From assembly GCF_001613545.1 (NCBI RefSeq), contig NZ_BDCO01000002.1, forward strand, positions 1,674,001 through 1,738,000: a stretch of 64,000 nt of DNA. The letters are read 5' to 3'. A model generated the notes under the pieces. That model did no database searches. It worked only from the letters and a program-made list of their open reading frames with translations, and was not told the DNA's origin. Positions 4,838 through 57,749 of the stretch are shown here, piece by piece (positions within the stretch are counted from its first letter, which is position 1; the number at the start of each line of letters is the position of its first letter). A program made the position numbers and the translations under genes. The DNA is from Terrimicrobium sacchariphilum (GTDB taxonomy: Bacteria > Verrucomicrobiota > Verrucomicrobiia > Chthoniobacterales > Terrimicrobiaceae).

Positions 4838-7800
4838 TCAGGGAGCGAACGGTCGATTCGAGCGCTGGCGCCACCGGTAGAAAGTGTCGAGCGAGGGGGT
4901 GGCGTTTGGATTGGCCGCGTAGTCCTTGATATCAGGATTGGCCGGGTTGATGAACCTCTCCAGAGTCGTCGAGCCGCGGTAGTCGCCGGTGACGCTATCC
5001 TTGCCTTCTTCCCACACACCTTGATTGGAGCCGGGGCGCTTCTTTAGTGATTGGGTGCGGTAATACACGGTATAGGTATTTGAGCGGGTGGTTAGGCGAG
5101 GGTACACCGTCGTGTAGATCCGCTCTCGTGAATTGTCACCAGTAAGGGCGTGAGCCGCCCAGTAGGCGGCCATGCTTTGGTCGAGGGACTGCTTGGACCC
5201 GGTGGATGGAGAGGCGTCGTCGGGAATGATGTGAAAGTCACAGATCTCAGCGGGGGTTCGGAAGGCGTAGAGGCCCGACCCATCGGAGTTTGAAAAGCGG
5301 TAGTCGAGCTGCTTGAGGGTGTCGGGTATATTGACGGGACGTCGATAGGAGTTGGTGCCGCTATTTTTGTATGTGCCAGTGTCTTCATTGGGCACCGAAA
5401 CGACCTTCTCCTGTTTAAGCACGGCGTTCAGTCCGGTATTTCGCTGCACCCAGGTGAACGGAATGATCTGCTGGTTGAGATTGATCTTTCCGGCCGTCGA
5501 GAGAGGTTCGCTGATCGCGTAGGGTTCGACGACCGGCATCCAGAAGAGATCGAGGATCAGGTAGTCGGGGTTGGCAATGAAGCCTCCGGGCGCGGAGGGG
5601 TAGTTCGGATGGCCGGGCTGCCTGCGGAAAAGCAGCGTTTCCCAATGATGCTCCCTTTTGATCCCGGTCGGCAGCGAACCAAACATGCCGGGAGAGGGAA
5701 TGATGCGGTTCGGCGAGAAGAAATTGCTGACGTCGAACATTTCCGCTCCATAGCTCTCATAGTAGGGGACGCGTTCGGATGATGCGTTGATGTATGTATT
5801 GCCTTCATCTGGCTTGTTGAGGTAGGGGCCGTCGGCATCATTCGTCAATCCATTGTCCCAGTCGCCTGTCGCCTGGGCCGCGGGGACGGGGAGGGGGGTG
5901 TCGGGATGGCTGGAGCGCTGATAGTTTTGGGTCATGTTGGCCAGCTTGCCCCCATAGGTTGTGGACAGGCTGTCGTATTTGGACCCATCGCGAAAGACAT
6001 GCATGTACCAGCCGCCACTATACTCGGTGAAGGAGTCGGCCAGGCGATAGTCGTTGTTATAAAGCGGGTGAGGAACGAAGTGCGTGTCTGTCGTCGGAGT
6101 GATGTCGTCGGTCCTGGCAGCGAGGATGCGGAAGTCGGCATTGTTGCCGTTTTTGTCGGCAGGCACGATGGAACGGACAAGATCGGAGTTCCGTTCCAGG
6201 ACGAAAAAGTCTCCGCCTCCGAAATCACCAGCCAGCCTGCCGGCAGAGACCGTGCCACCCTTGTCATCGGTAAGTCCGGCTCCTCCTGCCTGGAACGTCC
6301 ACTGCTTCTGCGCCGCTGACTTGACGGAGCCATCGGCATTTAGTGTCGTCGTATTATTCAGGATCGGCGCAGGAAAGGTGCCTCCCGGCATGTCTGCGGT
6401 GATCTTCTGTACGACGTCTCCCGTGGCCCGCTTGAGGATATGGAAGGTCAGACGTCCTCCGCTGAAGGTGAGCCTCGGATCGCTCGCCATGACCCGGATC
6501 GTCACCGGCTCACTAATAAATGGGTATTGTCGGTTCTTTGTTACTCCGGCTCCTCCATCCGTGCTGCTGCTAAACATGGAATCCTGTGGCAGGCGGCCAT
6601 TGTTGCGGGCACGCACGCCTCTGCCGTCGAGAGTCCACCAGAGCCCCATGTTGCCGCCGGTTGGGAACCCCCCATTCACATCATGCGAGTATTTCCCGAG
6701 AATCATTCGGCCCGCCTTCGTTTCAGTCTGGTCGCTTTCGGGAGGGAAGCCCAGTGCAACCGCGGAGCCATCGGCATTGCCTTTTACGGTGAAGTTCTCC
6801 AGTCCCTCGATCTTGATCTCGATGTCCGGCCTCAGCCCCGCATAGCCCTGCATGGGGGTAAAGAGCTCCAGGAGCATTGCCGCCTCGATGCGGATTTGCT
6901 TGGTGCCAGCCGATGTGTCTTTCTGAAGCACCCTGTCATCCCATGCCGTGGCGGGGTCATTTGTTCCCGGCAGAGTCTTGTTGCGATCGGTGAAGACGCC
7001 GTTGGAGTCGATGCTGTTATTGGAGGCGGGAATGTCGGGGTCTGCCGTGCAGATGAACCAGATGCCTGCCTCGGTCAGGCTTAGTTCGCGTCCGAACCCC
7101 TTGGTGTCTCCGATGCGGATCGGCTCCACGACTCCATAATCAAGACGGGTTTTGTTGTCTGCTGAGTTGGCCTTTATGCCGGTGGCATACCGGCTTGCCT
7201 TGGCCAGATTGCCGTCATAGAGATTCGTGCTTCGGATATAGTCAAATATCTCGGTCAGGACCTGATCGGAATCATTGCCATATTTCCCGGAGAGCGTATC
7301 TCCGAACCCCGGAAATTTGCGCGCCATGAGGTCCCTTAAGTAGGCGTAGAGGGTCCTGTTACGGAGGATCTTGTCGTAGTCATCAGTCGGGCTGGCGGCA
7401 TTGGCTCGTTGAAAGTAGTAGGGCTGATTATTGATCGTGCTGCAAAACGCGATCAGCCGGTCAAACGGGGTTCTGTAGTTGGAGGAGTTGGTCGAGTGAA
7501 TCGGCCAGCACGAAACGCGGGGAAGATTGAACAGATTCGTCTCCGGAGCCCTGCTGGAGGTGGTGAGGAAGAACTTTCCGCGCTCCAGCATTGAGCGGGT
7601 GATGCCTGCATTTTCCGCGCGCGAGTTGGAGAAAAGCAGTTCGTCCTCTGTGGCGATGAGCCGGTCCTGGTCCAGCCCTGCCGCGGCGGCATCGCTGACC
7701 TTGATGGTTCCATTCCGGGAACCCTCGTTCTTCAGGCGGGGAACCAGGCTGAAGATCTGGTCTCGCGTCAGGTTGGGAAACACGGCTGAGAGGCTCGTAG

Positions 7801-8617
7801 TTGCCGGGTGGCCGGGATAGGCCTGAAACTCGTTCTTTGCGGGCTGGTACTGGGCCAGGTCCTTTTCCTGGGGGGTGCCAAATCTCGGGGCATCCCAATA
7901 CGTTCCCTCCGAGGCGGTATTGACGTTGATCTTGCAACTCTCGTCGTCGGTCCAGAACGCGACGCGGCCCACGATGCGGTTGGAATCCGAGGCGCCGGGC
8001 ACGGTGGCGGTATCGCCTGATCCTGAAGGGGCGACCATCTGGCCGTCCTGGAGGATGTAGAGCCAGGTGACGGGCATGGGCGCCGGGTTGGTGATTCCCT
8101 GGGATGCACCGGTCGGGGCGGAGTTCAGGGCGAAGCCTTCCACCTCCCCGGCGGCTGATGGATCAAGGATCGGCCACTTGTCCACTGTACCGTCGAAATC
8201 GCTATCGGCCGGCATGTTGAGGTCCGTGTAGAGAGCCGGGTGTTTATACCAATCGGAAAGTGTCGATGCTTCCGCGGTCGGAACGAGCGCTCCCTCCGTC
8301 CACATGGACGGAGAGCTGTAGAGTTTGTATGTTCTTTGAGCCTTTCCGCTGTTGTCAAAGGTGCGGATGAGCCCCGGCTGTGAGGTCCATGCGACTGTCG
8401 TGCCTTGTTTGGTAGCGGCATCGATCTGCGCCTGGACGACCTGTACAGCGTCTTCCGCAAGTATCTTTGCGCTGATGGAGGAAGCGTAACCACTGGCCAC
8501 TCCTCGCTCGACCTGCACCCGCGAAAGAATTCCTACGACGAGAGCCAGCACCAGTACCATGATCGCGAGGGCGATGATCAGTGCAGCTCCCTTTGTTGGA
8601 GTGGGACGAGACTTCAT
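4838..8617 (-). CDS. Verru_Chthon cassette protein A-like (isolated paralogue)
   Basis: The 1259-residue protein has a single N-terminal membrane helix after KGAAL (about residues 9-33), like PilX/prepilin-type anchors, and a long extracytoplasmic region. It shares blocks with the cassette A protein at 25272-29003: GRVAFWTDDESCKINVNTA, LTEIFDYIRSTN, SPNRIIPSPGMFGSLPTG and DLFWMPVVEPYAIS. These place it in the Verru_Chthon cassette A family, whose function is unknown but is thought to involve a pseudopilin-like assembly. Unlike the usual arrangement, no B, C or D gene is next to it; its only close partner is the rhamnosidase 13 bases downstream. Confidence 0.85.
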   Translation of the reverse strand: MKSRPTPTKGAALIIALAIMVLVLALVVGILSRVQVERGVASGYASSISAKILAEDAVQVVQAQIDAATKQGTTVAWTSQPGLIRTFDNSGKAQRTYKLYSSPSMWTEGALVPTAEASTLSDWYKHPALYTDLNMPADSDFDGTVDKWPILDPSAAGEVEGFALNSAPTGASQGITNPAPMPVTWLYILQDGQMVAPSGSGDTATVPGASDSNRIVGRVAFWTDDESCKINVNTASEGTYWDAPRFGTPQEKDLAQYQPAKNEFQAYPGHPATTSLSAVFPNLTRDQIFSLVPRLKNEGSRNGTIKVSDAAAAGLDQDRLIATEDELLFSNSRAENAGITRSMLERGKFFLTTSSRAPETNLFNLPRVSCWPIHSTNSSNYRTPFDRLIAFCSTINNQPYYFQRANAASPTDDYDKILRNRTLYAYLRDLMARKFPGFGDTLSGKYGNDSDQVLTEIFDYIRSTNLYDGNLAKASRYATGIKANSADNKTRLDYGVVEPIRIGDTKGFGRELSLTEAGIWFICTADPDIPASNNSIDSNGVFTDRNKTLPGTNDPATAWDDRVLQKDTSAGTKQIRIEAAMLLELFTPMQGYAGLRPDIEIKIEGLENFTVKGNADGSAVALGFPPESDQTETKAGRMILGKYSHDVNGGFPTGGNMGLWWTLDGRGVRARNNGRLPQDSMFSSSTDGGAGVTKNRQYPFISEPVTIRVMASDPRLTFSGGRLTFHILKRATGDVVQKITADMPGGTFPAPILNNTTTLNADGSVKSAAQKQWTFQAGGAGLTDDKGGTVSAGRLAGDFGGGDFFVLERNSDLVRSIVPADKNGNNADFRILAARTDDITPTTDTHFVPHPLYNNDYRLADSFTEYSGGWYMHVFRDGSKYDSLSTTYGGKLANMTQNYQRSSHPDTPLPVPAAQATGDWDNGLTNDADGPYLNKPDEGNTYINASSERVPYYESYGAEMFDVSNFFSPNRIIPSPGMFGSLPTGIKREHHWETLLFRRQPGHPNYPSAPGGFIANPDYLILDLFWMPVVEPYAISEPLSTAGKINLNQQIIPFTWVQRNTGLNAVLKQEKVVSVPNEDTGTYKNSGTNSYRRPVNIPDTLKQLDYRFSNSDGSGLYAFRTPAEICDFHIIPDDASPSTGSKQSLDQSMAAYWAAHALTGDNSRERIYTTVYPRLTTRSNTYTVYYRTQSLKKRPGSNQGVWEEGKDSVTGDYRGSTTLERFINPANPDIKDYAANPNATPSLDTFYRWRQRSNRPFAP

Positions 8618-24663: not shown

Positions 24664-25275
24664 TTACGGGCGATAAACCCGGGCCTTTCCGGTCGCCGGG
24701 GAGATACCGATAACGGCATAGTTTGCCGGCAGGCTCGCGAGACCGTTTCCCTCCCCTGTGCGATGAATGGTCAAGTAGTGCTGGCTGCTGGACGACAGGG
24801 TCGGCACTCCATTCGGTTGAAAGCGCAAATACCAGCAGTCGTAATTTGTGCCGAGAGACCCAATGACAGGCGCTGACCCGCCACCCCATTGCTTGGTATT
24901 GGCGGAGGAGACAAAAGAAGAAAGCTGTGAGCCTGTGTCGATCCCGATGCCTGTCGCCAACCGGATCAGACCGCCTTTTGCACCGGTTGTGCCATCGGGG
25001 TCTACGAGCCGCATCTGGTACGAGGAGATAAAGGGTTCATTCTTGGGCTTGAGAAACCACACCTCGACCGGTTGATTCTTTGCAATTGCAACCTCGCGCG
25101 CGAGGGAGAGTGTGTCCAGGAGTTGATTGGCCGATGCGGTCAACTGGGCCGACTGGCTATTGCCTACGCCTGTGACGACCAGCACGCCTACCAGCGACGC
25201 GATCGCGATGACGATCAGCAGTTCGATCAGTGAAAACGCTTTGCGTTTACTGGATGGTGCCGAAGCAGGCATCAC
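24664..25275 (-). CDS. Verru_Chthon cassette protein D (prepilin-like)
   Basis: The 203-residue protein begins with a basic leader and KAFSLIELLIVIAIASLVGV, a type IV prepilin/GspH-like N-terminal methylation motif (Phe at +1, Glu at +5), then a globular domain. Size, motif and position after the large A gene identify it as the D component of the Verru_Chthon cassette. Its start overlaps the end of A by four bases (ATGA), which argues for translational coupling. It is expected at the inner membrane until processed by a prepilin peptidase. Function of the cassette is unknown. Confidence 0.88.
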   Translation of the reverse strand: MMPASAPSSKRKAFSLIELLIVIAIASLVGVLVVTGVGNSQSAQLTASANQLLDTLSLAREVAIAKNQPVEVWFLKPKNEPFISSYQMRLVDPDGTTGAKGGLIRLATGIGIDTGSQLSSFVSSANTKQWGGGSAPVIGSLGTNYDCWYLRFQPNGVPTLSSSSQHYLTIHRTGEGNGLASLPANYAVIGISPATGKARVYRP

Positions 25276-28200
25276 GGCTGGAACCTCCTGGTTTCGGTGA
25301 CACGATAGCGATAATAGCCCTCGATGGATTTATCGAAGTTCGCCGCGTTTGCGAAATCCGGCAAATCCTGTTCTCTGTCGAGATAGCGATTAATCGTATA
25401 GGAACCGCGATATTCCGAGGCGATGCGCTTCGCGTTTTCCGTCCACACACCGTCCGCGCCATTCGGGTCGGGTTTCAGGACCTGCACGCGGACATGGACG
25501 GTGAATGTATTCGACTTGGTCGTGAGGCGCGAGTACAGGCCGTTATAGGGGCGTTCACGTGTATTGTCTCCAGTGAGCTTATTATTGCCCCAGAAGGTCT
25601 CGGCGTCGGAGTCCGAGGTCCACGATTGATTGCTCGGCACCAGGTAGATTCCGCAGATTTGTGCGGCCGAGCGAAATATCTCGCCCTTGTCAAACAGGGC
25701 TTTGAACTGACGTAGAGAGCCCGTCGATTCGCCAGCGGTGACACCATCGGACTCCAGAACCTTCACGGGATTGCGATAGTTCAGTGACGGATTTCCGGAG
25801 GTTGTGCGGGATTTATACTTTCCTGCGTCGGTCGTGGGCACGGCGATCACATACTCTGACCCCAGGGTCCCAATGAGAGCAGTGGCTCTCGTTACATAGG
25901 TGAAAGGCGCCAGTTGGTAGTTCATATTGACCTTTCCTTCCGTGGCAAAGGTCGTGCTGATCGCATACGGTTCGACCACCGGCATCCAGAACCAGTCGAG
26001 CATGAGATAATCCTTTGGGTCGGTGGTCTGGCCAAAGTGGTTTCTCTGCGGACGGAAGAGCAGGGTTCGCCACGGCACAGCTGTCATGCCACCGACCGGG
26101 ACGCCTGTTGAGAGTGAGCCAAACATGACGGGGGAGGCGAGATTGCGGTTGGGGCTCGAGTATCCCCTTGCATCGGTGAGAAGACCGGAGTCTCCCTGCA
26201 TATAGTAGGTATAGGTGTCCTTGTTGCCCGTCCAGGTATCCAGGAAATACTGCATGCCCACCTCATCCGGCTTGTTGATATAAGGGCCGTCGGGGATGAT
26301 GCCGAGGCCATTGTCCCAGTCTCCCGTGGAGTCCGGGCCATTGGGGTCGGAGACCAGACCGGTGATGGGCAGGAAGTCACCATAGGTGACGCCCTTGACC
26401 AACTGGCCGGGACTGTTGAATCCCGTGGAAACCTTGAATCCGGTGTTGGGAAACGCTTCGCGCATCGAGTGCAGGGACTGCTTGGTTTCATCGAGCCCGG
26501 AGGGATGAACGAAGGTGGAGTCTGGTACAGTCCGCAGGGCTGAAACGAGGCGCAGATCGCCGTTGAACGTGGCCACTGCGGAGCGCGTGATGTCCGTTGT
26601 GTCAACGATCGGATAATCTGCGTTATTGCCTGATCCGAAGAATGCGTCAAAGAGCCGATAGTCGAATCTCGACTTGTTCTTGACCGGGACGCTGAGGTTG
26701 GAGAATGGCGGCAAGGTAACGGTCATTTCCTGCACCAGATAGCCGGGATTGCCCGCTTTCCCTTCTCCCACCTGATCTGCCCAGAAGATTTTCAGGTGCA
26801 ACGTGCCGCCGGTGAAGCTGAGTTTGTCGTCCTTGTTGACCAGGATATCATTGCCCCGGAAAGCGTAGGTGCTGGTATCGCCGCTGGCCTTTTCCACAAA
26901 CATGGGCCGTGGACCGGCTGCTCCTCCCCAGAAAAATGGGAACCATGATCCATTGTGCCATCGCACCGCTTTTGGAACGGAGCTGAATACCGAGCCCGCC
27001 GCGGGTGCGCTGAACAACGGCTTTTCCGTGCCATTTACGGAAAGCTTGAGCCCCAACAGGTCCGCTGTGTCGATCTGGACGCGCATGTTGGGGTAGAGAA
27101 TCGGCGGCCCCATCGAGGGCGAGAACAGGTTGATATAGATCGCGGGAACGATGGTGGGGTTGTCCACCACGGTGGTGTCTTTGGATACGCCGATATTGAT
27201 AGCGACTTCGCTGATCGAGTGGAATCGACCGAACCCTTTCGTGCCGAACTCCGAGATGTAGATGGGAGTCACCTGACCGCGCCCCATATCATAACTCCTC
27301 ACTGGCGAGCTAAAGCTGCTCAGGGGAGCGGTTTCCTGACGGAATTTTGTGTAGGTGTGATCCGTGGCGGGTGTCGTCCCAAACAGCATCGCATCGGTTA
27401 CGTTGGTCGACCGAATATAGTCGAAGATTTCGGTGAGGATCTGATCCATGCCGGGCCGCGTGTATTTTGCGACAAAGTTGTTTCCAAATCCCGGTATCTC
27501 TGTTCCGGAAAGTCGGCGTAGATAACCGAAGAGTTCCTTGTTCCGGGAAATATTCTCGTAGTCGGATGTCGGGCTGGTCGAGTCGGCGCGGGTGAAAAAA
27601 TAGGAGGCGGGCTTGGAGGAGGCGGCATTCAGTGTGGCAGCGCTGGCGATCATGCGATCGAAACGGGTCGCATAGGCGCTCGTGGCATTGCTGAGGAAGT
27701 CGTTGTGGATGGGCCACATCGCGATGCGAGGCTTTCCGAAGAGATTGATCTCCGGGGCCTCGCTTGAGGCGGTGAGGACAAACTGGAGACGGTTCAGGTC
27801 GCTGCGGGTGACGAGTTGCTTCTGCGCGCCTCCCTGTTCGACATAGGTATTGAGACTCCGTTTGCCACCAGAGGCATTCTGGCTGAATATCCATTCATCC
27901 AGAGTGGTATATGGTGTGGCTCGTGCAGGTGAGGCCATTGTGGCTGGGTCCTCCAGCTTGCCCGCAAGGTCCCAGAAGGTGACGGTGCCACCCTGCGATC
28001 CGCCCCATTGGAGGAACGGAGTGACGCCTGTTATCGCGCGGGATCTCACAAATGGGCTGGCAGGCGCCAGGTCGGGGATCACGGTGCTAAGGCGTGTCTG
28101 CGCTGGATGCCCGATATAACGTTGAAATTCCCGTGCCGCGGGCGGGGTTACGGCAAACTGGCGGTCCCCGATAGCCTGTGCCGCAGTGGGACTCTTGACC

Positions 28201-29003
28201 GGTAATGCGCTGTCGAATCTCGGGCTGTCGAAATAGGTGCCATCGGCAGCAGTGTTGATGTTCAGCTTGCAAGTTTCGTCATCTGCCCAGAAGGCGATCC
28301 GGCCCACGATCGGATTGCTCTTGCTCGCTCCATCGACTTTGATGCTTCCGCTGGAGCCGCCTCCCTCCCCGGGCACCAGTGTGCCATCTCGCAGCACATA
28401 AAGCCATCTTACCGGCATGGGCGCGGTGTTGGATCCCGAGGGGCGCGCCGATTGATCGATGTCGAAGCCGGGAATTGCCTTGCTGGAGTTATTGCTGAAC
28501 TTTGCGCCGATCGGGTCCATGATCGGGTAGAGCTTGGTATTGCCATCAGCGGAGAGCACCGGGCTGTTGAGATCGGTAAAAACTCCGCCCCCTTCCCATG
28601 TGCCGGTAGGGAGGTCTGCCGTCAACTGGCTGAGTCCAGCGGACCCCGGTGAGGATTGGATCATCTTCTGGGCGGAGTAGAGCTTGAACCAGGTCGTCTC
28701 CTGGCCCTGATTATCATAGCACCTGATCATTCCCGGCTGGGAGGCCCAGGCGGTGGAGGGGCCTTGTGTGGTGGCTTCCTGCAGTTGGGAAATCACGGTT
28801 TGCACTGCGACGTTCGCCAGTCGCATGGCATTGTCTGCCGAGGCGTTGGCGTCGGTGGCCTGGGTATCGGTGCCCACGGTGCTCAATGTCGCCGTGATGA
28901 AGATCGCCACCAGCACGATGAGCAGCAGGGTGATGACGAGGGCAAAGCCCCGGGTGCGGGAAGGTTGGTTCACGACGCTTAAAGATTTTCCGTTTTGCTC
29001 CAC
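25272..29003 (-). CDS. Verru_Chthon cassette protein A
   Basis: The 1243-residue protein has an N-terminal membrane helix after TRGFALVITLLLIVLV (about residues 18-42), then a very long extracytoplasmic part. Conserved blocks include GRIAFWADDETCKLNINTA, LTEIFDYIRSTN, SPNRNLASPVMFGSL and DWFWMPVVEPYAIS. The family is known from Verrucomicrobium and Chthoniobacter-type genomes, always beside three prepilin-like proteins. It overlaps C by 25 bases at its start and D by 4 bases at its end, so the cassette is one transcription unit. A second A-type protein at 4838-8617 shares all these blocks. Confidence 0.92.
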   Translation of the reverse strand: MEQNGKSLSVVNQPSRTRGFALVITLLLIVLVAIFITATLSTVGTDTQATDANASADNAMRLANVAVQTVISQLQEATTQGPSTAWASQPGMIRCYDNQGQETTWFKLYSAQKMIQSSPGSAGLSQLTADLPTGTWEGGGVFTDLNSPVLSADGNTKLYPIMDPIGAKFSNNSSKAIPGFDIDQSARPSGSNTAPMPVRWLYVLRDGTLVPGEGGGSSGSIKVDGASKSNPIVGRIAFWADDETCKLNINTAADGTYFDSPRFDSALPVKSPTAAQAIGDRQFAVTPPAAREFQRYIGHPAQTRLSTVIPDLAPASPFVRSRAITGVTPFLQWGGSQGGTVTFWDLAGKLEDPATMASPARATPYTTLDEWIFSQNASGGKRSLNTYVEQGGAQKQLVTRSDLNRLQFVLTASSEAPEINLFGKPRIAMWPIHNDFLSNATSAYATRFDRMIASAATLNAASSKPASYFFTRADSTSPTSDYENISRNKELFGYLRRLSGTEIPGFGNNFVAKYTRPGMDQILTEIFDYIRSTNVTDAMLFGTTPATDHTYTKFRQETAPLSSFSSPVRSYDMGRGQVTPIYISEFGTKGFGRFHSISEVAINIGVSKDTTVVDNPTIVPAIYINLFSPSMGPPILYPNMRVQIDTADLLGLKLSVNGTEKPLFSAPAAGSVFSSVPKAVRWHNGSWFPFFWGGAAGPRPMFVEKASGDTSTYAFRGNDILVNKDDKLSFTGGTLHLKIFWADQVGEGKAGNPGYLVQEMTVTLPPFSNLSVPVKNKSRFDYRLFDAFFGSGNNADYPIVDTTDITRSAVATFNGDLRLVSALRTVPDSTFVHPSGLDETKQSLHSMREAFPNTGFKVSTGFNSPGQLVKGVTYGDFLPITGLVSDPNGPDSTGDWDNGLGIIPDGPYINKPDEVGMQYFLDTWTGNKDTYTYYMQGDSGLLTDARGYSSPNRNLASPVMFGSLSTGVPVGGMTAVPWRTLLFRPQRNHFGQTTDPKDYLMLDWFWMPVVEPYAISTTFATEGKVNMNYQLAPFTYVTRATALIGTLGSEYVIAVPTTDAGKYKSRTTSGNPSLNYRNPVKVLESDGVTAGESTGSLRQFKALFDKGEIFRSAAQICGIYLVPSNQSWTSDSDAETFWGNNKLTGDNTRERPYNGLYSRLTTKSNTFTVHVRVQVLKPDPNGADGVWTENAKRIASEYRGSYTINRYLDREQDLPDFANAANFDKSIEGYYRYRVTETRRFQP

Positions 29004-30013
29004 GGCTTGGGCACAAGCTCGACCACGATTTCCTTGCGGTTGTATCTCAGGTGGCGCGAATTCAGGTTTTCTTCAAATCGGGCAAAGTCTCCGGCATCGC
29101 CTCCGGATGGATGAAGCTTGGATGTATCTCTGAAGAGCGAACCGTACAGATCCGGCATACTGCTGGACTGTTCCAATCGCTTTGCGGAGGGTTCGTCTAT
29201 GGTGTACAGCGTGATCCGGATGGCGGGGGGAAGGCGATTTCTGGGATTGGTCGCAGGGTCGGTACGAGACTCGGAGGAGTCGTAGGCAAAGTCGCCCGTC
29301 AGCTCGGTTGCGTCTGGCGCGGTGGAATTTAGCGGTTCCACGATCATGGCGATCACGTTGTCTGCGATTGCGCGGGTTGCGAGAGGGGAACCCTGCATGG
29401 CGGTCTTCTGCCATCCGGTGGCTGGCTTGAAGGCAAACTGAGGTGATGTCGTGACGGTATCCGAATAGAGAGTGACCTCCTCCGCGGGCTGGAGAAATTG
29501 CATGAGGCGAAAACGGTACTCTTGTGATGGGGGAAGGATAGCCGGGCGATCGGCGTCTTTGTTGCTCCACTCGATGAAGTATCCGCAAATATTCAGCAGT
29601 CCCGAGAGGTTCTGATAGTTGCTATCATTGGTGACACCCAACGGGGCGGTGAAAAAGAGAGCATGGGTCGGAGAACTGCTTGAGGACCCCTGGAGAGAAC
29701 TCGAGCGGCCGGAAATGAAGCGCAGTTCCGATCGACGTCCCCATTTTACCGGATACCCCGAGCTATCAAATTCGTAGCCGAGATATTCATCGAGCGTGGC
29801 CTTGGATAGATTCGCTCCGATGAGGCTCAAGCCGCCTCGGGTTTCCCTGAACTGCTCGACCTTCGAGGAGGCAAAACGCCATGCACTGCTTGCCTGCTCG
29901 ATCAAACGAAAGGAGACCAGAAGGAGAATGATAAAAACTGTCAGGGCCACCAGTATCTCCAGCAAAGTCATGGCCCGCCTGTCGAGGTGGGGAATGCTGC
30001 GGCGGTATTTCAT
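28979..30013 (-). CDS. Verru_Chthon cassette protein C (prepilin-like)
   Basis: Starting at ATG 30013 the protein has 344 residues; a GTG at 30049 would add 12. After a basic leader it shows RRAMTLLEILVALTVFIILL, a prepilin-like N-terminus with Glu at the expected +5 position, and RGGLSLIGANLSKATLDEY, typical of minor-pseudopilin J-like proteins. Position between B and A fits the C component of the cassette. No good ribosome binding site is visible for either start, as is common in this phylum. Confidence 0.87.
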   Translation of the reverse strand: MKYRRSIPHLDRRAMTLLEILVALTVFIILLLVSFRLIEQASSAWRFASSKVEQFRETRGGLSLIGANLSKATLDEYLGYEFDSSGYPVKWGRRSELRFISGRSSSLQGSSSSSPTHALFFTAPLGVTNDSNYQNLSGLLNICGYFIEWSNKDADRPAILPPSQEYRFRLMQFLQPAEEVTLYSDTVTTSPQFAFKPATGWQKTAMQGSPLATRAIADNVIAMIVEPLNSTAPDATELTGDFAYDSSESRTDPATNPRNRLPPAIRITLYTIDEPSAKRLEQSSSMPDLYGSLFRDTSKLHPSGGDAGDFARFEENLNSRHLRYNRKEIVVELVPKPWSKTENL

Positions 30014-30099
30014 CGGGACGGGTTTGGCCGTTACGGGCAGGAGAAACACGCGGTGGAGATAAGAAACGACTCGCTGGCCCGGCGGTCTCTGGGCGTCCG

Positions 30100-30612
30100 C
30101 TACTGTTGCAGGACGCTCAGGTCCTTGCAGGTTACGAATCCGGAATAGGTAGCGAGGGCGGCGACATCGGCCTTGTAGAGGCCGCCTGGCGCTCGGAATA
30201 TGTCAACACTCACCGTGGCCAGGGAGGTGGGAGGTGTTGCGCCGCCGGGAATGCGGATCTGCTTTTGATTTCCTCCCTGATCGCGATTCACCCTTACTCG
30301 GGCAGCGTAGACCACGGAATTGTTGGCCGCCGTCTGGAGTTCGCCTTGGGCATCAAAGTAGCGGACGAAAGTGCCTGTTTGCAGCAGGTCAACAAAGGGC
30401 ATGCGGTCGGCCTCGAGCAACACGGTTTGGGAAATGCCCTGGGCTCGATTCTTTTCAATATTATTGCTGAGCTTGGCGATGTTCGAGGGCAACAGGCCGG
30501 CAAGCGAGAGCGCAGCGAACGTCATGATCGAAACACTCAGGGTCACTTCCACGAGTGAAAACCCGCGGACGAACCGGTCAATGCGGCGGGGGTGCATGCT
30601 TTGGGGGATCAT
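30100..30612 (-). CDS. Verru_Chthon cassette protein B (prepilin-like)
   Basis: The 170-residue protein carries the leader MIPQSMHPRRIDRFVRG followed by FSLVEVTLSVSIMTFAALSL, a clear prepilin peptidase site (Gly-Phe) and methylation motif. It is the first gene of the cassette, 86 bases before C. By order and size it is the B component. It shares an upstream region of 228 bases with the divergent beta-helix gene at 30841, where an operator-like site is found. Confidence 0.88.
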   Translation of the reverse strand: MIPQSMHPRRIDRFVRGFSLVEVTLSVSIMTFAALSLAGLLPSNIAKLSNNIEKNRAQGISQTVLLEADRMPFVDLLQTGTFVRYFDAQGELQTAANNSVVYAARVRVNRDQGGNQKQIRIPGGATPPTSLATVSVDIFRAPGGLYKADVAALATYSGFVTCKDLSVLQQ

Positions 30613-30655: not shown

Positions 30656-30683
30656 TTTCAAGAAAAATATATCGCTATAAAAT
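30656..30683 (+). promoter_or_regulatory. promoter with operator variant (site 2), beta-helix gene at 30841
   Basis: TTTCAA (30656-30661) and TAAAAT (30678-30683) are 16 bases apart. The decamer ATATCGCTAT (30669-30678) ends on the first T of the -10, the same register as the exact palindromes. The predicted leader is about 150 bases. The site could also affect the divergent cassette. Confidence 0.55.
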
Positions 30684-30840: not shown

Positions 30841-33438
30841 ATGTGCCGATCTGTTTTCCGAATCCTTCTGTATCCAGCCTGTCTTGTGGCATTCCTCCTG
30901 GGTCGACCTGTACAGGCAGGGGAGGGCTTTGTTGCTCCTGATCTGGTGACGGCTGGAATGCCATTTCAGTTGAGGCTGCCAAAGGGGACATATCAGATCA
31001 ACTGGGGCGACGGGACGAATATTGTCACGGATTCCCAGGGATATGTTTCGCATGTCTATCGGCAGGCGGGCAGCGTGACAGTGGAGGTTTCGGTTACGGC
31101 CGGAGGCATAAGCAAACCCTATCCTTGGAGCTATGACGCGATGATCATTGCGGCCAAGCCGCTGGTTTTTCTCTCAACTCCGGGAGGAGATGCCATATCG
31201 GGGCCTGCCGACAACCTGCCTCGCGCTTTGCCGTTGCAGGGAGAAGCCAGGGATGTTGCGGTGGAGAGTCGGGAGGGCACGAACGAGCTCTCCGCGGATT
31301 TGTGGGTGCGTCTCGATTCTCTGGAGGGGCGCCAGGTGCTGGTAGCGAGCCGGGAGGAGGCGGGTGGATTTGCGCTGGCTTATGAGGGAGCTGCGTTGTC
31401 TTTTTCGATCGTTGGCGCTGGAGTGGTTTCATTTCCTGTAGGGGAGCGGATTGCTGCCGGGAAATGGCATCATGTGGCAGTGGTATACGACGCAGTGCCG
31501 CTATTTCCCTTTGCCAACACGGTGAGGGTGTATGTTGACGGTCAACTCGCGGGCGATGGGCGGATAGCTGCCCGCCATTCCGGCCCGCTGAAGTTCTCTG
31601 GAATCCGCTTGGGAGGAGAGGGCGTGCAGGGGGCTATGTCCGGTTTTGCGCTGTATGACAAGGTGCTCTTCCCGCTCAGTATCTGGGATCGGTACTCTGC
31701 ACTTGCTTCTCCCAATAAATGGAATGTCTCTGTCGCATTTCCAGGATCGAGCAGGGTCACCGTGGTGGAACCAAAAATCCTGAAGACCATTGATGTCCCG
31801 CTTGATCCTGATCCCGCGGCGGATAATGGACCGGCCATCCGGAGTGCCGTCACGGCAGCGCAGCCTGGAACCCGCCTCAGGCTTGTCGATGCGACCACGG
31901 GAAAGCCGGGTACACGGTTCTCTGTGAAATCACTGATAGCGGGAAACAAGTGGGCGGCGATCCTTATTGAGGGCAAGCAGGATCTGGAGTTGAACGGAGG
32001 AGGCGCGACGCTCGTCTTTTCCCAGGCGATGGCCCGATACCTCTATATCCTGAAGTCCGCGCGCATCGCCGTGCGCGACCTTTCGTTCGACATCGATCCG
32101 ACGTATGCGAGGCCGGGACTGTATGCAAAAATTCTCGATTTGAACCGGGAAACCGGTGTGGTGACCGCGCAATTGGTCAATGGACGTGATGGATCCCCTG
32201 ATCCTATCATTCCCAGCCGGGCGTCTTATTGGCGGTGGAGACCGCATGATCCGGTCACCTTGCGCCATAGCGAAAAAGGTCCGGCCTTTCGGAGTGACAT
32301 TTACGCAGAAAAGCCTGTTCCGGATGGTTCTGGCCGCCCGGGAGTAATTGTATTCAAGGCGAAAAAGAAGCCGGAGGACAAATTTTGGGATGAGCTGAAA
32401 CAGTACGTGGAAGGCGATAACTTCTACATGATCAACAATGGTGATTTTTCATCGAACGCGGTGAGCCTGGACTTCAGCGAAGACGTGGTCTTTGAGCGGG
32501 TGAACTATTACGCCACACTTGGAATGGTGTTTCTTTCCTCGGATATTCGCCGGGTACGTGTCGCACATTGCGTGATCGGTATTCCGCCGGGCATGACCGC
32601 GGAGGATCGCCCGTTGTCCGCTGGCGCGGACGGGTATCACTTTCACCTGACTCAGGGAGATATCGTATTCGAGAATAACGAGGTCACCCTTACGGATGAC
32701 GATCCGATCAGCATAAAGGACAGCATGTGGGGAAAGCTGAAGAGGCTGGACAATTATACACTCGATGTCGGCGCGAAAGGTTTTACCAAGGGTGATCCGG
32801 TCGAGCTTTTAACACCCGAATATGAATCTGCGGGATATAAGGCAACGGTAGTGCGGGCGGACGGGACCAAACTGACACTCAGCGTCGCTCTGCCGGCGAC
32901 GATCGTCCCAGGCAGCGTTCTGATGAATCGCAGTCATCATACAAAAAATTGGATATTGAGAGGGAACTACTTCCACGACTACTACGGGCGGATCATGCTC
33001 TATACGGACTACGGGACGGTGGTCGGGAACCGTGTCCATGACAGTCTTTATCACCTCGGGATCAGCAATGCCTACTTTGAGGTGGCGGGAGTTTCGCGCA
33101 ATGTGGTGACCCATAGAAACCTTTTTGATAGCACCAATGCGGATACGGCAAACTGGGGAGGGAATGCCACAGTAACGGTTTTTAATCAGATTACCTACTC
33201 CGCAAACAGCTTTGTGGGGGGGCGTCTGCTACTCGACCAGGTATCTGGTGGAGCGATGATCCGTAATGCCTTTTACCGCAAAGAGCAATCCCCTCGCGGA
33301 AGTTCGATCCAGATCAAGGGTAGTCGCAATGTGGTTGTCTCGGACAACCTGCAGTTTGGACCTGGAGCGGATCAGTTTCTGTTGAAAAGTGACAACAATA
33401 CCAACCTGATCGAGACCCGGAACCGCGTCGTGAAGTGA
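30841..33438 (+). CDS. secreted right-handed beta-helix glycosidase-like protein with PKD-like and LamG-like domains
   Basis: The 865-residue protein has a signal peptide (cleavage near VQA, residue 26), a PKD-like domain (about 35-90, with INWGDGT), a concanavalin/LamG-like domain (about 145-285, with GKWHHVAVVYD) and a long parallel beta-helix (about 310-860). In the helix Asp597 (GADGYHF) is followed 23 and 24 residues later by Asp620-Asp621 in LTDDDPISI. The same D-x22-DD pattern occurs in the GH110 protein at 55942-57705. It is therefore probably a glycoside hydrolase of a GH110-like or GH28-like type, substrate unknown. It is convergent with the GntR/LacI gene, 4 bases apart. Confidence 0.7.
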   Translation: MCRSVFRILLYPACLVAFLLGRPVQAGEGFVAPDLVTAGMPFQLRLPKGTYQINWGDGTNIVTDSQGYVSHVYRQAGSVTVEVSVTAGGISKPYPWSYDAMIIAAKPLVFLSTPGGDAISGPADNLPRALPLQGEARDVAVESREGTNELSADLWVRLDSLEGRQVLVASREEAGGFALAYEGAALSFSIVGAGVVSFPVGERIAAGKWHHVAVVYDAVPLFPFANTVRVYVDGQLAGDGRIAARHSGPLKFSGIRLGGEGVQGAMSGFALYDKVLFPLSIWDRYSALASPNKWNVSVAFPGSSRVTVVEPKILKTIDVPLDPDPAADNGPAIRSAVTAAQPGTRLRLVDATTGKPGTRFSVKSLIAGNKWAAILIEGKQDLELNGGGATLVFSQAMARYLYILKSARIAVRDLSFDIDPTYARPGLYAKILDLNRETGVVTAQLVNGRDGSPDPIIPSRASYWRWRPHDPVTLRHSEKGPAFRSDIYAEKPVPDGSGRPGVIVFKAKKKPEDKFWDELKQYVEGDNFYMINNGDFSSNAVSLDFSEDVVFERVNYYATLGMVFLSSDIRRVRVAHCVIGIPPGMTAEDRPLSAGADGYHFHLTQGDIVFENNEVTLTDDDPISIKDSMWGKLKRLDNYTLDVGAKGFTKGDPVELLTPEYESAGYKATVVRADGTKLTLSVALPATIVPGSVLMNRSHHTKNWILRGNYFHDYYGRIMLYTDYGTVVGNRVHDSLYHLGISNAYFEVAGVSRNVVTHRNLFDSTNADTANWGGNATVTVFNQITYSANSFVGGRLLLDQVSGGAMIRNAFYRKEQSPRGSSIQIKGSRNVVVSDNLQFGPGADQFLLKSDNNTNLIETRNRVVK

Positions 33439-33442
33439 CGTT

Positions 33443-34564
33443 TCAGTGTCCCCGGGAAGCCCGTTTTTGCTTCCTGTCGCCGGGGTGAACGGACTGAGCG
33501 CTGCTGCGACTGACCAGATGCGGCCGGAGGGTGATATGTCGGTGGGTGGATTTTGAAGATGAGCTGGCGAGGTTTTGCTCCACAAGGTGAATGACCTCAC
33601 GAGTGAACTGATTCAGATCGATTTGTACGGTTGTGAGCGGAGGGTCTGTAAAGTCGCATAATGGCGACTCGCTCGAGTACGTGACGAGACTCACATCCCC
33701 TGGTACGCGGATGTTTCTCTCGCGGAAAGCCCTTAGAGCTCCTAGTGCGCCCGTCCAGCTCAAGCAGAATACCGCGGTGAAAGGGAGCACAGGCATGGCA
33801 TCCAGGCGCTGGCTGAGGCGCTCATAGGCACTGGAGATCGAGTCAGGACCATGCTGGACGGAACAGTCAATCACCAGGTCTCGGAGATCCGAAATGCCCG
33901 CTTTCAGCATTTCACTCCGCCAGCCTTGCAGGCGGGCCGTAGCCGACGGGTTATAGGGTTCGCTCAACATTGCGGCGATGTGCGTATGGCCCAGGTCCAG
34001 CAGGTGCCGGGTAGCCAGGCGGCCGACTTCGCTGTCGTCGACCCATACGGCACTGGCTTTCGCGGACTTGGGCCTTTCCCGAAGAAACACGACAGGCTTT
34101 CGTGCGCTGTTTACTGCGTGAATCTGGTCAGATGTGATGCCCTGTGTGCCAATAAGCAGCCCTGCGTCGTACTGTTTCAGGATCTGCTCGATATCGAGGT
34201 CGTGGATGTCGCTATAGATGTGGACTCCGAAGCCAAACTGCTCACGATGGCCCATTTCGTAGAGCCGGTTGGTGATTTGTTCGAAGTCCGGCGAGTACCA
34301 GAGGGGTCTAATAAGAGCCACGCGAAATCTGGAGCGTGCGCTGGTTTGTGCCACCACGAGCCGCTTTTTACCGTGCGGCTTCTCGATGAGGCCCTGCAGT
34401 CTCAGCCTCTCCAGTGCATGAGTGATCGTGATCTGGGAGCATTCATATGCCGCCTTCAGCTCTTCCATGGTCGGGAGGAGCTCCCCTGCACTCATTGACT
34501 GGATGTGATCACTGAGGAGCTTGGAGACATGAAAATGCTTGGTATGGGGAACTCGACGCGCCAT
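33443..34564 (-). CDS. GntR/LacI chimeric regulator (AraR-type)
   Basis: Residues 1-72 form a GntR winged helix (LLPTMEELKAAYECSQITIT, then LERLRLQGLIEKPHGKKRLVV). From about residue 78 the protein is a LacI-type periplasmic-binding sensor (FRVALIRPLWYSPDFEQI, HLLDLGHTHIAAML, DVSLVTYSSESPLCDFTDPP). This fusion is the architecture of AraR and related sugar-responsive repressors. The 373-residue gene is divergent from the secreted GH2 operon, and the region between holds an exact ATATCGATAT plus a degenerate copy close to its own promoter. It is the best candidate in the window for the protein that binds that palindrome; this has not been shown. Confidence 0.85.
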   Translation of the reverse strand: MARRVPHTKHFHVSKLLSDHIQSMSAGELLPTMEELKAAYECSQITITHALERLRLQGLIEKPHGKKRLVVAQTSARSRFRVALIRPLWYSPDFEQITNRLYEMGHREQFGFGVHIYSDIHDLDIEQILKQYDAGLLIGTQGITSDQIHAVNSARKPVVFLRERPKSAKASAVWVDDSEVGRLATRHLLDLGHTHIAAMLSEPYNPSATARLQGWRSEMLKAGISDLRDLVIDCSVQHGPDSISSAYERLSQRLDAMPVLPFTAVFCLSWTGALGALRAFRERNIRVPGDVSLVTYSSESPLCDFTDPPLTTVQIDLNQFTREVIHLVEQNLASSSSKSTHRHITLRPHLVSRSSAQSVHPGDRKQKRASRGH

Positions 34565-34690: not shown

Positions 34691-34719
34691 TTCAACTTGC
34701 GAAAATATCGATATAATAT
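34691..34719 (+). promoter_or_regulatory. promoter with exact operator (site 3), GH2 operon
   Basis: TTCAAC (34691-34696), 17-base spacer and TAATAT (34714-34719). The perfect palindrome ATATCGATAT occupies 34705-34714 and its last T begins the -10. A bound protein would block RNA polymerase. Confidence 0.7.
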
Positions 34720-46763: not shown

Positions 46764-48509
46764 TCAGGCAAAGATGATGTTAAGGACGAGGACGAGAGCC
46801 AGCACGATGATACCGACAAAAGCAGGGCGAGTGTACCAGACTTCGCCTTCTGATTTGGGCTTGGGCGTGAGAGAGTAGACGAGGCCGGCAAGCTCCTCGT
46901 TGGTTTTCGTGCGAGCCGTCACCAGAGAGATGCCGATAGTGAGGACAAAGCAGACCGTCCACGCCACAATGGCAACCCAGAAGTTCTGCCCCATTTCGCT
47001 TTGAAAGTGAAAGACCGGCGTGATCCAGCCTCCCTTGATGCCGGGCACGGCATTGTGAGAGAGTGACAGACCGTGAAAGACTACCGCGGAAAGCGTGCCG
47101 GCCACCAACCCCCAGAAGGCGCCGTGTCCCGTAGCCCGGCGCCAGAACATACCGAGCAGGAAGGTCGCGAAAAGCGGCGCGTTCACGAATCCAAACACCA
47201 GTTGGAGCATGTCCATGATGTTATTGAAGTGCGACGCCATGAAAGCAGTGCCGATGCTCAGGATGATGCCCACTATCGTCGCCACACGGCCCATCCAGAG
47301 GTAGTGTTTGTCTGATTTTCCGGGAGCGAAATAGCTTTGGTAAATGTCGTAGGTCCAGACGGTGTTGAACGCCGTCACATTCCCCGCCATTCCGGCCATG
47401 AAGGAAGCCATGAGCGCGGTGAAACCCAGGCCGAGAAGGCCGGTCGGGAAGTATTGCGCCAATAGCGCCGGGATCACCATGTTGTAATCTGGAGTGCCGT
47501 CATGAGAAACCGGAAGGAACTTGCCCCCGGATTGGTAGTGCATGGCGATGGCGATCATGCCAGGGAGGATGACCAGAAGCGGGAAGAGCATCTTCGGTAC
47601 GGCGGCGATGAGAGGAGTCCGTCGAGCTGCCGACATGGACTCGGCAGCCATGGCTCGCTGGACGACCAGGAAGTCCGTACACCAGTAGCCAAAGGAAAGG
47701 ACGAAGCCAAGGCCCATGGCCATTGCGATCCAATTGACGCCCATGGGATTTTCTGCCGCGGAACCCATGTAGTGCCAGGAATGCGTCCATGTCCCGGCGG
47801 CGAAGCCTTCATTGGTCGCCACGGGAATAAGCTTTTCCTTCAGCGCACTCCAGCCGCCGATGGCCTTTAGGGCCAGATAGACGAGCGGGGTAAACCCGAG
47901 CACGATCATAAAGAACTGGAGGACCTCGTTATAAATTGCCGAGGTCAGCCCGCCGAGAAGGATGTATACCAGCACGATCGCGGCGGAGATCCCGATACAG
48001 GTCCAGTAGTTCCAGCCGACTAGGACCTCCAGCAGCTTGGCCAGCGCATGGAGGGAAATGCCGGAGGAGAAGATGGTCATTAGCGCGAATGAGAACGCAT
48101 TGAATCCACGCGTCTTTTCGTCAAATCGCAGCTTGAGATACTCCGGCACCGAACGCGCCTTTGACCCATAGTAGAAGGGCATCATGAAGATGGCCAGGAA
48201 GACCATCGCCGGGATTGCGCCGAGCCAATAGAAATGGCTGGTCATGATGCCATACTTTGCGCCGGAAGCAGCCATTCCGATGATTTCCTGAGCTCCAAGA
48301 TTGGCGGAAAGGAAAGCCAGTCCGGTGACCCACGCCGGGATCGCGCGGCCCGACTGAAAAAACTCGCTGCTGCCCTTCATGTAGCGCTTGAGGGCGAGAC
48401 CGATGCCGATGACGAATACGAAGTACAATCCGAGGATCAGGTAATCAACCGGCGTGAGATTGATATTGATCGAGGATGCGACGGAGGAGGTGGTCGGGGA
48501 TGCGGTCAT
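46764..48509 (-). CDS. vSGLT-like sodium/sugar symporter (SSS family)
   Basis: The 581-residue protein has about 14 membrane helices. Features of the sugar-transporting SSS branch include DYLILGLYFVFVIGIGLALK, WVTGLAFLSANLGAQEIIGM, the helix with SVPEYLKLRFDEKTRGFNAF, and YWCTDFLVVQRAMAAESMSAA. This is close in pattern to the Vibrio Na+/galactose transporter. It is the first gene of the operon running to the GH2 and further genes, behind the exact operator at 48579-48588 and divergent from galT. Na+-driven galactose or galactoside uptake is the most likely role. Confidence 0.88.
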   Translation of the reverse strand: MTASPTTSSVASSININLTPVDYLILGLYFVFVIGIGLALKRYMKGSSEFFQSGRAIPAWVTGLAFLSANLGAQEIIGMAASGAKYGIMTSHFYWLGAIPAMVFLAIFMMPFYYGSKARSVPEYLKLRFDEKTRGFNAFSFALMTIFSSGISLHALAKLLEVLVGWNYWTCIGISAAIVLVYILLGGLTSAIYNEVLQFFMIVLGFTPLVYLALKAIGGWSALKEKLIPVATNEGFAAGTWTHSWHYMGSAAENPMGVNWIAMAMGLGFVLSFGYWCTDFLVVQRAMAAESMSAARRTPLIAAVPKMLFPLLVILPGMIAIAMHYQSGGKFLPVSHDGTPDYNMVIPALLAQYFPTGLLGLGFTALMASFMAGMAGNVTAFNTVWTYDIYQSYFAPGKSDKHYLWMGRVATIVGIILSIGTAFMASHFNNIMDMLQLVFGFVNAPLFATFLLGMFWRRATGHGAFWGLVAGTLSAVVFHGLSLSHNAVPGIKGGWITPVFHFQSEMGQNFWVAIVAWTVCFVLTIGISLVTARTKTNEELAGLVYSLTPKPKSEGEVWYTRPAFVGIIVLALVLVLNIIFA

Positions 48510-48573: not shown

Positions 48574-48601
48574 TTTTTATATCGATATTGCTGCATGAAA
48601 A
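48574..48601 (-). promoter_or_regulatory. promoter with exact operator (site 4), symporter-GH2 operon
   Basis: On the minus strand TTTTCA (48601-48596) and TAAAAA (48579-48574) are 16 bases apart. ATATCGATAT at 48588-48579 ends on the first T of the -10. The -35 is weak. Confidence 0.62.
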
Positions 48602-49821: not shown

Positions 49822-49849
49822 TTGACATAAAAGAATATCGATATATAAA
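49822..49849 (+). promoter_or_regulatory. promoter with exact operator (site 6), beta-helix paralogue C
   Basis: TTGACA (49822-49827), 16-base spacer, TATAAA (49844-49849); the best -35 in the set. ATATCGATAT lies at 49835-49844. The predicted transcription start coincides with the ATG at 49857, so the mRNA would be leaderless. Confidence 0.75.
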
Positions 49850-51762: not shown

Positions 51763-51791
51763 TTGGATGAAAAATATATCGATATTAATTT
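51763..51791 (+). promoter_or_regulatory. promoter with exact operator (site 7), prepilin-like and beta-helix D
   Basis: TTGGAT (51763-51768), 17-base spacer, TAATTT (51786-51791). ATATCGATAT occupies 51776-51785 and touches the -10 directly. The predicted leader is about 28 bases. Confidence 0.65.
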
Positions 51792-51825: not shown

Positions 51826-52521
51826 ATGAAGATGAGAATTCCTCCCCGGAATGCAGTGAATGGTGCGTTCACACTCATGGAGCTTCTGGTGGCTATCAGC
51901 ATTGTGATTCTTCTCGTCGTGGTATTGAGTCCCTCTGCCATAAATGGGATGCGGGAGGCAGAGTCGGTCAAATGCATCGCCAATCTGCGCCAGCTTGGTT
52001 CCGCGATCACGACATATACTGCGGAGAAAGGGGTGTTTCCTCCGGGGGGATGGATCGGTGGTATTCCTTGGGTTACGGAGACATTCCCCTATACAGGGAA
52101 TCGCTCGGATGTCTATTTTTGCCCGGCGGGAGGGAAGCGAGGCCCGAACGGAGAATGGGCGTGGAACACGTTTCCTGCTCCCGCGCAAAAGATCCTTTAC
52201 TCCATGCATTATGCCTATAATGCCATGCTTAACGGCGATGGATCACCGGTGCCCTCCGGGCCGCGTAGTCCCCAAGGTGTGAGAAGTCTTTCCCATCTCC
52301 CCATGGTGATTGATGTCGTTTGGCAGAATAATTTCTATGCTTTCGATGGAGTCTTTCCAAGGGAACCGACTCCGAAGTCTGGCTCATCGTTTGCGACCAG
52401 ACATATGAATTTGGGGCATGTCCTGTGGGGCGATGGCAGCGTCACAGCCTCCAGCACCCAAACCCTATACGACCTCCAGCGCCAGGTTGGGCTGATGGAA
52501 TTCTTCCGTGGCGATTACTGA
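51826..52521 (+). CDS. prepilin-like protein with H-X9-DG domain
   Basis: The 231-residue protein starts after the operator-promoter. It has a basic leader and NGAFTLMELLVAISIVILLVV, a prepilin peptidase site (Ala-Phe at the junction, Glu at +5). Near the C-terminus H-MNLGHVLWG-DG matches the H-X9-DG motif of prepilin-type processing-associated domains that are abundant in Planctomycetes and Verrucomicrobiota. Function is unknown; pseudopilus-like structures or secretion are possible. It is 89 bases before the beta-helix D gene, so the two are probably one operon. Confidence 0.82.
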   Translation: MKMRIPPRNAVNGAFTLMELLVAISIVILLVVVLSPSAINGMREAESVKCIANLRQLGSAITTYTAEKGVFPPGGWIGGIPWVTETFPYTGNRSDVYFCPAGGKRGPNGEWAWNTFPAPAQKILYSMHYAYNAMLNGDGSPVPSGPRSPQGVRSLSHLPMVIDVVWQNNFYAFDGVFPREPTPKSGSSFATRHMNLGHVLWGDGSVTASSTQTLYDLQRQVGLMEFFRGDY

Positions 52522-54330: not shown

Positions 54331-54358
54331 TTGCAGAAAAACAATATCGATATAAAAT
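54331..54358 (+). promoter_or_regulatory. promoter with exact operator (site 8), PEP-CTERM protein gene
   Basis: TTGCAG (54331-54336), 16-base spacer, TAAAAT (54353-54358). ATATCGATAT lies at 54344-54353, ending on the first T of the -10. The leader would be about 10 bases. Confidence 0.7.
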
Positions 54359-57720: not shown

Positions 57721-57749
57721 ATATTAATATATCGATATGGAAAGGGAAA
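57721..57749 (-). promoter_or_regulatory. promoter with exact operator (site 9), GH110 gene
   Basis: On the minus strand TTTCCC (57749-57744) and TAATAT (57726-57721) are 17 bases apart. ATATCGATAT lies at 57738-57729, here 2 bases before the -10 rather than touching it. The leader would be about 10 bases. Confidence 0.55.

Follow-up and report, generated by a model that had tools for sequence, protein, structure and literature searches.

Between positions 24664 and 30612 of a 64,000-nucleotide stretch of Terrimicrobium sacchariphilum DNA (contig NZ_BDCO01000002.1, positions 1,674,001 to 1,738,000; hereafter the window) lies a cassette of four genes, B-C-A-D, whose products belong to the Verru_Chthon protein families. 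What might such a set of prepilin-like proteins do in the midst of genes for sugar use? The evidence considered here indicates that the quartet is very probably a minor-pseudopilin tip of the GspH-I-J-K kind known from type II secretion systems (T2SS), with B corresponding to GspI, C to GspJ, A to GspK and D to GspH.

The four prepilins and their predicted folds

Examination of the open reading frames (ORFs) and comparison with NCBIfam place all four genes on the minus strand:

30100-30612, minus strand: protein B, predicted GspI-type minor pseudopilin, 170 aa, with a class III leader and Glu5 (TIGR02598, 1.8e-10)
28979-30049, minus strand: protein C, predicted GspJ-type minor pseudopilin, 356 aa (TIGR02599, 3.5e-68; GspJ-like model)
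25272-29003, minus strand: protein A, predicted giant GspK-type cap pseudopilin without Glu5, 1243 aa (TIGR02600, 6e-243; GspK-like model)
26334-27326, minus strand: variable middle of A (residues 560-890), proposed recognition part; a beta-sandwich spans about 594-776
24664-25275, minus strand: protein D, predicted GspH-type minor pseudopilin, 203 aa (TIGR02596, 4.4e-24; GspH, 3.3e-9)

These E-values lie far beyond chance, and the preliminary description of the locus as a complete Verru_Chthon cassette in the order B-C-A-D stands. Proteins A (809.6 bits; curated cut-off 332.3) and D (85.6 bits; cut-off 70) pass the thresholds of their families; C (230.5 bits; cut-off 256.5) and B (41.2 bits; cut-off 51.4) score under theirs, their homology being clear all the same. 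The coupled overlaps reported in the same description depend on the start codons chosen: C and A overlap by 25 bases if A begins at the GTG at 29003 and are separated by a 5-base gap if it begins at the GTG at 28973, both leader lengths being represented among the paralogues of A, and at the A/D junction (GTGATG) the overlap amounts to 4 bases with GTG as the start of D and to 1 base with the ATG at 25272. Likewise, its division into three prepilin-like proteins and a giant A is correct for B, C and D; A too is prepilin-like, though it lacks Glu5.

The glutamate at mature position +5, as detected by our own motif finder, is present in all of the B, C and D proteins of the genome (23 of 23 in each case), and absent from A in each of the 24 genes of this genome and each of 68 relatives; the cleavage motifs are intact across the quartet members. 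In the available excerpt of a published account (PMC10191384), the HIJK complex occupies the filament tip, possesses a cap subunit without Glu5 and makes contacts with secreted effectors, and the minor sets of T2SS and type IV pili can substitute for each other in piliation. The lack of Glu5 in A is thus the mark of a K-type cap. Family scans point the same way: GspI, XpsI and PilV are matched by 8, 10 and 14 of the 23 B proteins; GspJ, GspI and ComGE by 15, 9 and 21 of the 23 C proteins; and GspH and GspG by 21 and 17 of the 23 D proteins. GspK is matched by 8 of 13 A proteins of type 1 and 6 of 11 of type 2, the A protein of the window matching the GspK N-terminus at 8e-6. Neither the A profile nor the type-2 A profile found anything in sequence searches of the PDB, and the B, C and D profiles returned mostly pilin N-termini, the additional beta-propeller chains obtained with the D profile being taken as chance.

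Structure models cover A and C, B and D being assigned by sequence profiles. The C model (from 60 sequences; predicted local distance difference test, pLDDT, 88) aligns with GspJ structures at Z-scores of 11.2-12.5 (3cfi_B, 12.5; 3ci0_J, 11.5; 5vtm_W, 11.5) and with a Thermus pilin at 11.8, the next unrelated row scoring 2.9; Foldseek likewise gives a GspJ match at 2.3e-5. For the A model (residues 44-1243, from 69 sequences; pLDDT 83, predicted template modelling score 0.91), the best VIA-align match is 3ci0_K, the GspK of the GspK-GspI-GspJ crystal structure, with a Z-score of 7.6 (values below 8 may, as the tool warns, reflect merely a common arrangement), a root-mean-square deviation of 3.4 and 256 of 280 residues aligned, followed by a row at 3.7. 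As the alignment is scattered across residues 5-1200 of the model, A is predicted to hold the GspK fold, interrupted by large, partly variable inserts. The view of A as part of a GspK-like pseudopilus tip, put forward in the preliminary description, withstands the structural part of the refuting condition given there, as the two models resemble GspK and GspJ, and it is in keeping with the Glu5 pattern and the family scans.

Among the parts of A compared, the middle (residues 560-890) diverges most: identity between the 13 paralogues (78 pairs) is 25% there vs 44-50% in the cores, and across 12 orthologue pairs 82% vs 86-89%. The beta-sandwich within it gives weak structural matches alone. This pattern is as expected of a specificity region, which the middle of A could represent; relaxed constraint could yield the same pattern.

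Operators and the putative sugar regulon

The surroundings of the cassette agree with what had been described before. On one side lies a convergent xylulokinase gene (FGGY family; TIGR01312, 517 bits) and on the other a divergent gene for a secreted protein, whose beta-helical nature emerges from a phmmer match to the beta-helical GH110 (glycoside hydrolase family 110), the Pfam scan of this protein giving no beta-helix match; the operator variant reported for the shared upstream region was also recovered. The operators, given without strand, and the genes beside them are:

30669-30678: operator variant ATATCGCTAT, upstream of both B (by 56 bp) and the 30841 ORF (by 162 bp)
30841-33438, plus strand, divergent: candidate cargo, a secreted LamG/PKD protein that includes a GH110-like beta-helix part (Laminin_G_3, 4.9e-17; phmmer GH110A, 7.8e-5)
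33443-34564, minus strand: proposed regulator with GntR-type DNA-binding and LacI-type sugar-binding domains (PF00392, 6.1e-7; PF13377, 4.7e-28)
34705-34714: operator ATATCGATAT, flanked by the regulator and a GH2 gene, each more than 100 bp away
46764-48509, minus strand: sodium:solute symporter gene, with an operator upstream
48579-48588: operator upstream of the symporter gene
49835-49844: operator at the 5' end of a beta-helix gene (ATG 49857, if this is the start)
51776-51785: operator upstream of the GspG-like pseudopilin gene
51826-52521, plus strand: GspG/DUF1559-type pseudopilin of the same putative regulon (PF07596, 8.1e-9; GspG, 1.2e-6)
54344-54353: operator upstream of the gene at 54375
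55942-57705, minus strand: GLAA-B/beta-helix (GH110-type) gene, with an operator upstream
57729-57738: operator upstream of the GLAA-B/beta-helix gene

The pattern ATATCGMTAT has 14 matches in the window vs 0.09 expected; as perfect palindromes are counted twice, these correspond to eight sites. If one mismatch at most is allowed, a 13-base version occurs at 13 sites in the genome, 6 of them in the window, which makes up 1.3% of it. Genome-wide, the operator pattern gives 14 rows (one site appearing on both strands) vs 6 for a reversed control, so that isolated matches mean little and the evidence lies in the clustering. Two further small clusters of operators of this type were noticed outside the window, at C2:856498-858606 and C2:3373571-3376912. 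The GspG/DUF1559-type gene has a perfect ATATCGATAT operator 40 bp ahead of it, so that the putative regulon shared with the tip cassette would include a major-type subunit.

It might be argued that the 30669 operator serves the divergent GH110-like gene alone and that sugar has no bearing on expression of the cassette: the site sits between divergent genes and is one base off the palindromic consensus, and no sigma-70-type promoter was recognised between B and the 30841 gene. We consider this improbable, as the site is about three times closer to B than to the 30841 ORF, and the sites at 48579, 49835, 51776, 54344 and 57729 stand about 10-70 bp from gene starts (the 34705 site being the distant one). 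Moreover, independent cassettes have palindromes of their own 40-75 bp upstream of the first gene. Measured from the first base of each site, a perfect 16-base palindrome of locus L042 lies 75 bp ahead of B and has a second copy 48 bp ahead of a GH4 gene; at L050 a repeated palindrome is found 40 bp ahead of B, in the vicinity of a LacI gene and upstream of a polysaccharide-lyase-like gene; and at L039 the distance from the palindrome to a GntR/LacI regulator is 85 bp, weaker copies lying 67 and 282 bp ahead of D.

When the 24 cassette loci of the genome were scanned for palindromes against 15 shuffles each, L042, L046 and L050 exceeded all shuffles and L039, L040, L048, L054 and L055 equalled the maximum; the remaining 16 fell below it, including L051, the window cassette, whose locus holds only two sites. 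The palindrome word of L046 was set aside, as it does not lie upstream of the cassette. With whole-locus shuffles L050 (6 copies vs a maximum of 4) and L039 (4 vs 2) stand out, and L042 (3 vs 5) is not notable by count, its case being the two identical perfect 16-base palindromes. Of the 24 cassettes, 18 have a LacI-type regulator within 10 kb (rotation mean 4.5, fraction 0.001), and five have one as an immediate neighbour. Taken together, the operator placement here and at L042, L050 and L039 lends support to the regulatory half of the preliminary description, and suggests on sequence grounds that the cassette is probably a member of the putative sugar regulon of the local GntR/LacI-type regulator.

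Cassette copies and filament machinery

The 4.75 Mb genome (3 contigs) was searched with the TIGR02600 model and the matches were grouped by gene. This gave 13 A genes above the cut-off and 10 weaker ones, and an additional quartet, L067, recovered through a C-like match at C2:646811, raised the total to 24. B, C and D lie near A at 23 of these 24 loci, genes lost in rough gene calling having been regained with profiles; at L040 the quartet consists of two divergent pairs. Ten of the 11 type-2 loci are collinear with the order D-B-C-A, which equals that of gspH-I-J-K, and in nine of them A is followed by a gene of a small secreted protein family. These small proteins carry an apparent signal peptide (e.g. 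L053:6796-7434 and L055:12541-13242; similar genes in 9 of the 24 cassette loci); neither of the two members scanned matches an NCBIfam model, nor does the L053 member match Pfam. Near three type-2 cassettes there are genes for related proteins about 1000 aa long (L053:3739-6771, L054:2420-5428 and L056:13294-16332), the L053 member being a GH38 alpha-mannosidase by Pfam. Another type-2 cassette has prophage-like genes beside it, with a portal-like protein recognised by eye (right part of L057, at about 842-849 kb of C2). The B-C-D-A cassettes of L047 (contig C3) and L048 (contig C1) are very similar on alignment, an apparent recent duplication.

All four genes are also found at 54 of 80 related loci (47 of the 60 with sufficient flank), which come from Verrucomicrobiota-type records bar one titled Blastochloris. 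Their most frequent arrangements are A-B-C-D (20), B-C-A-D (16) and B-C-D-A (12); D-B-C-A is seen 3 times and A alone 17 times. Of the 13 type-1 A proteins, 8 have a counterpart in one or both of two congeners that qualifies as an orthologue at 70% or above; the cassette repertoire changes between species. Across a phylum sample, 5 of 193 genomes pass the A cut-off. A link between cassette and T2SS at this level carries little weight: the GspD model is matched in every one of the 109 genomes that have an A-like match, but equally in 188 of the 193 overall, and most of the 109 A-like matches span the N-terminal 60 residues alone. Two other associations were discarded. PATR (autotransporter-repeat) proteins, 41 in number after chaining of 75 matches, proved too weak as dedicated partners, lying within 5 kb of 4 of the 24 cassettes (rotation mean 2.7, fraction 0.26) and within 10 kb of 9 (mean 4.4, fraction 0.018). 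The notion of one DUF1559 major pseudopilin per cassette is unsupported, the genome having 12 matches in all, few of them near cassettes.

The window itself holds a second A-type (giant GspK-like) gene at 4838-8617 on the minus strand, overlooked in the preliminary description, which stands without B, C or D. Copies about 81% identical in two congeners, together with the A-only loci among relatives, could be taken to mean that the expanded cassettes make up a family of paralogues which has lost tip-building and now supplies membrane-anchored surface proteins. This explanation is very improbable, given that 23 of 24 loci have kept the quartet and that Glu5 and the cleavage motifs are everywhere intact.

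One complete T2SS operon was found (L063, C2:3.00-3.02 Mb), encoding GspG, H-, I- and J-sized prepilins, a GspK of 304 aa, L- and M-like proteins, GspD, GspE and GspF, where H, I, J and L are assigned from position, NCBIfam giving no match for them. The genome further has 8 ATPases of the T2SSE family, 6 secretin matches and a second type-4-filament locus (L065) with pilins and an ATPase. With 24 A genes against 8 such ATPases and one complete T2SS operon, tips outnumber machines severalfold.

The quartet could instead cap a type IV pilus outside the cell, not a periplasmic pseudopilus, with the variable domain of A acting as a glycan-binding adhesin which, at the cell surface, captures polysaccharide to be digested locally. 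The L065 locus and the GspG/DUF1559-type subunit in the same putative regulon would suit such a role, and published work describes tip pilins of modular build with glycans or DNA as ligands (PMC9934059, PMC6561018). The sole complete machine identified with its own HIJK set, however, is the T2SS (L065 was not examined gene by gene), and the neighbouring secreted beta-helix enzymes are plausible T2SS cargo. We accordingly regard the adhesive pilus as rather unlikely, and lean somewhat towards B-C-A-D as the sugar-controlled tip of a shared machine with a role in secretion.

A proposed sugar-controlled tip and its known counterparts

Several points weigh against a secretion tip. The cassette has no assembly gene, none of GspD, E, F, L or M being adjacent, and the T2SS operon lies elsewhere with its own GHIJK. 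The window proteins remain under the NCBIfam equivalog cut-offs (GspK, 25.6 of 130 bits; GspH, 37 of 80; GspJ, 17.5 of 64.85), B has no GspI equivalog match in NCBIfam, and the Gsp profile matches rest largely on the conserved pilin N-terminus, so that the folds weigh more in the assignment; as to these, Foldseek with the A model gave no match at E≤0.001, and the GspK alignment of A falls within the range covered by the tool's warning. The 30669 operator, being a variant, could serve the 30841 gene alone. The solitary A gene, kept in two congeners, is not explained by a strict quartet model. Finally, a close orthologue of the window cassette is absent from the two congeners searched, as is the case for four other type-1 A proteins.

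Under the preferred reading of a secretion tip, a shared prepilin peptidase would cleave the B, C, A and D prepilins, and A, as the K-type subunit, would cap B and C, with D joining below. The resulting complex would initiate a pseudopilus whose assembly machinery has its genes elsewhere, the T2SS operon at C2:3.00-3.02 Mb being the likeliest source, and the variable insert in A might recognise a particular exported enzyme or glycan. In the presence of the matching sugar, the local GntR/LacI-type repressor would permit expression of the tip, the secreted GH110-like enzymes and the transporter together. A bolder extension, which we put forward tentatively and hold to be somewhat short of an even chance, is that about two dozen interchangeable tips, each with its own sugar regulator and recognition domain, retool a single secretion filament for whatever polysaccharide is at hand.

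This proposal gives four function-less families a concrete and testable role, and suggests how one secretion or pilus machine could serve many substrates, the choice of cargo by the T2SS being an open question. If true, it would explain the abundance of prepilin genes in the glycan clusters of this group. A search of a literature library for the name of the cassette family found no paper. Excerpts of related work report pilins and pseudopilins enriched in two Verrucomicrobiae populations (PMC12487129) and, in Verruconatronum alginivorum, an alginate-induced cluster with a pulG-like pseudopilin that has 67 homologues in the genome, the T2SS being separate (PMC13274419); the latter is a major-type subunit, unlike the B-C-A-D cassette.

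With respect to the Verru_Chthon families of NCBIfam (TIGR02600, TIGR02599, TIGR02598 and TIGR02596), the window proteins are members, although B and C stay under the cut-offs; no function is attached to these families, and gene order differs among loci. Among modular tip pilins, ComZ/PilA2 of Thermus thermophilus offers a likeness in that, according to the portion of the report available (PMC6561018), ComZ is a GspK-like pilin with a large domain inserted in its fold and a proposed tip receptor; it differs in serving DNA uptake, in the beta-solenoid nature of the insert and in being a pair where the cassette is a repeated quartet. In Streptococcus sanguinis, PilB and PilC similarly bear recognition modules at the tip (PMC8179133, PMC9934059), and a lectin module is described for PilA/PilC (PMC9934059). 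There the PilB module is joined to the pilin via a short loop, and the modular minor pilins are two in number, with no repeated quartet. The closest counterpart appears to be the GspH-GspI-GspJ-GspK tip of the T2SS (3ci0, 5vtm, 9a1f). It shares with the cassette the set of four prepilins of which only the K-type lacks Glu5, the predicted GspK and GspJ folds, and the H-I-J-K gene order seen in the type-2 cassettes. Unlike that tip, the cassette lies outside the machine operon among sugar-use genes, is present in about 24 sets per genome, does not reach the equivalog cut-offs and has an A protein about four times the size of GspK (1243 vs 304 aa).

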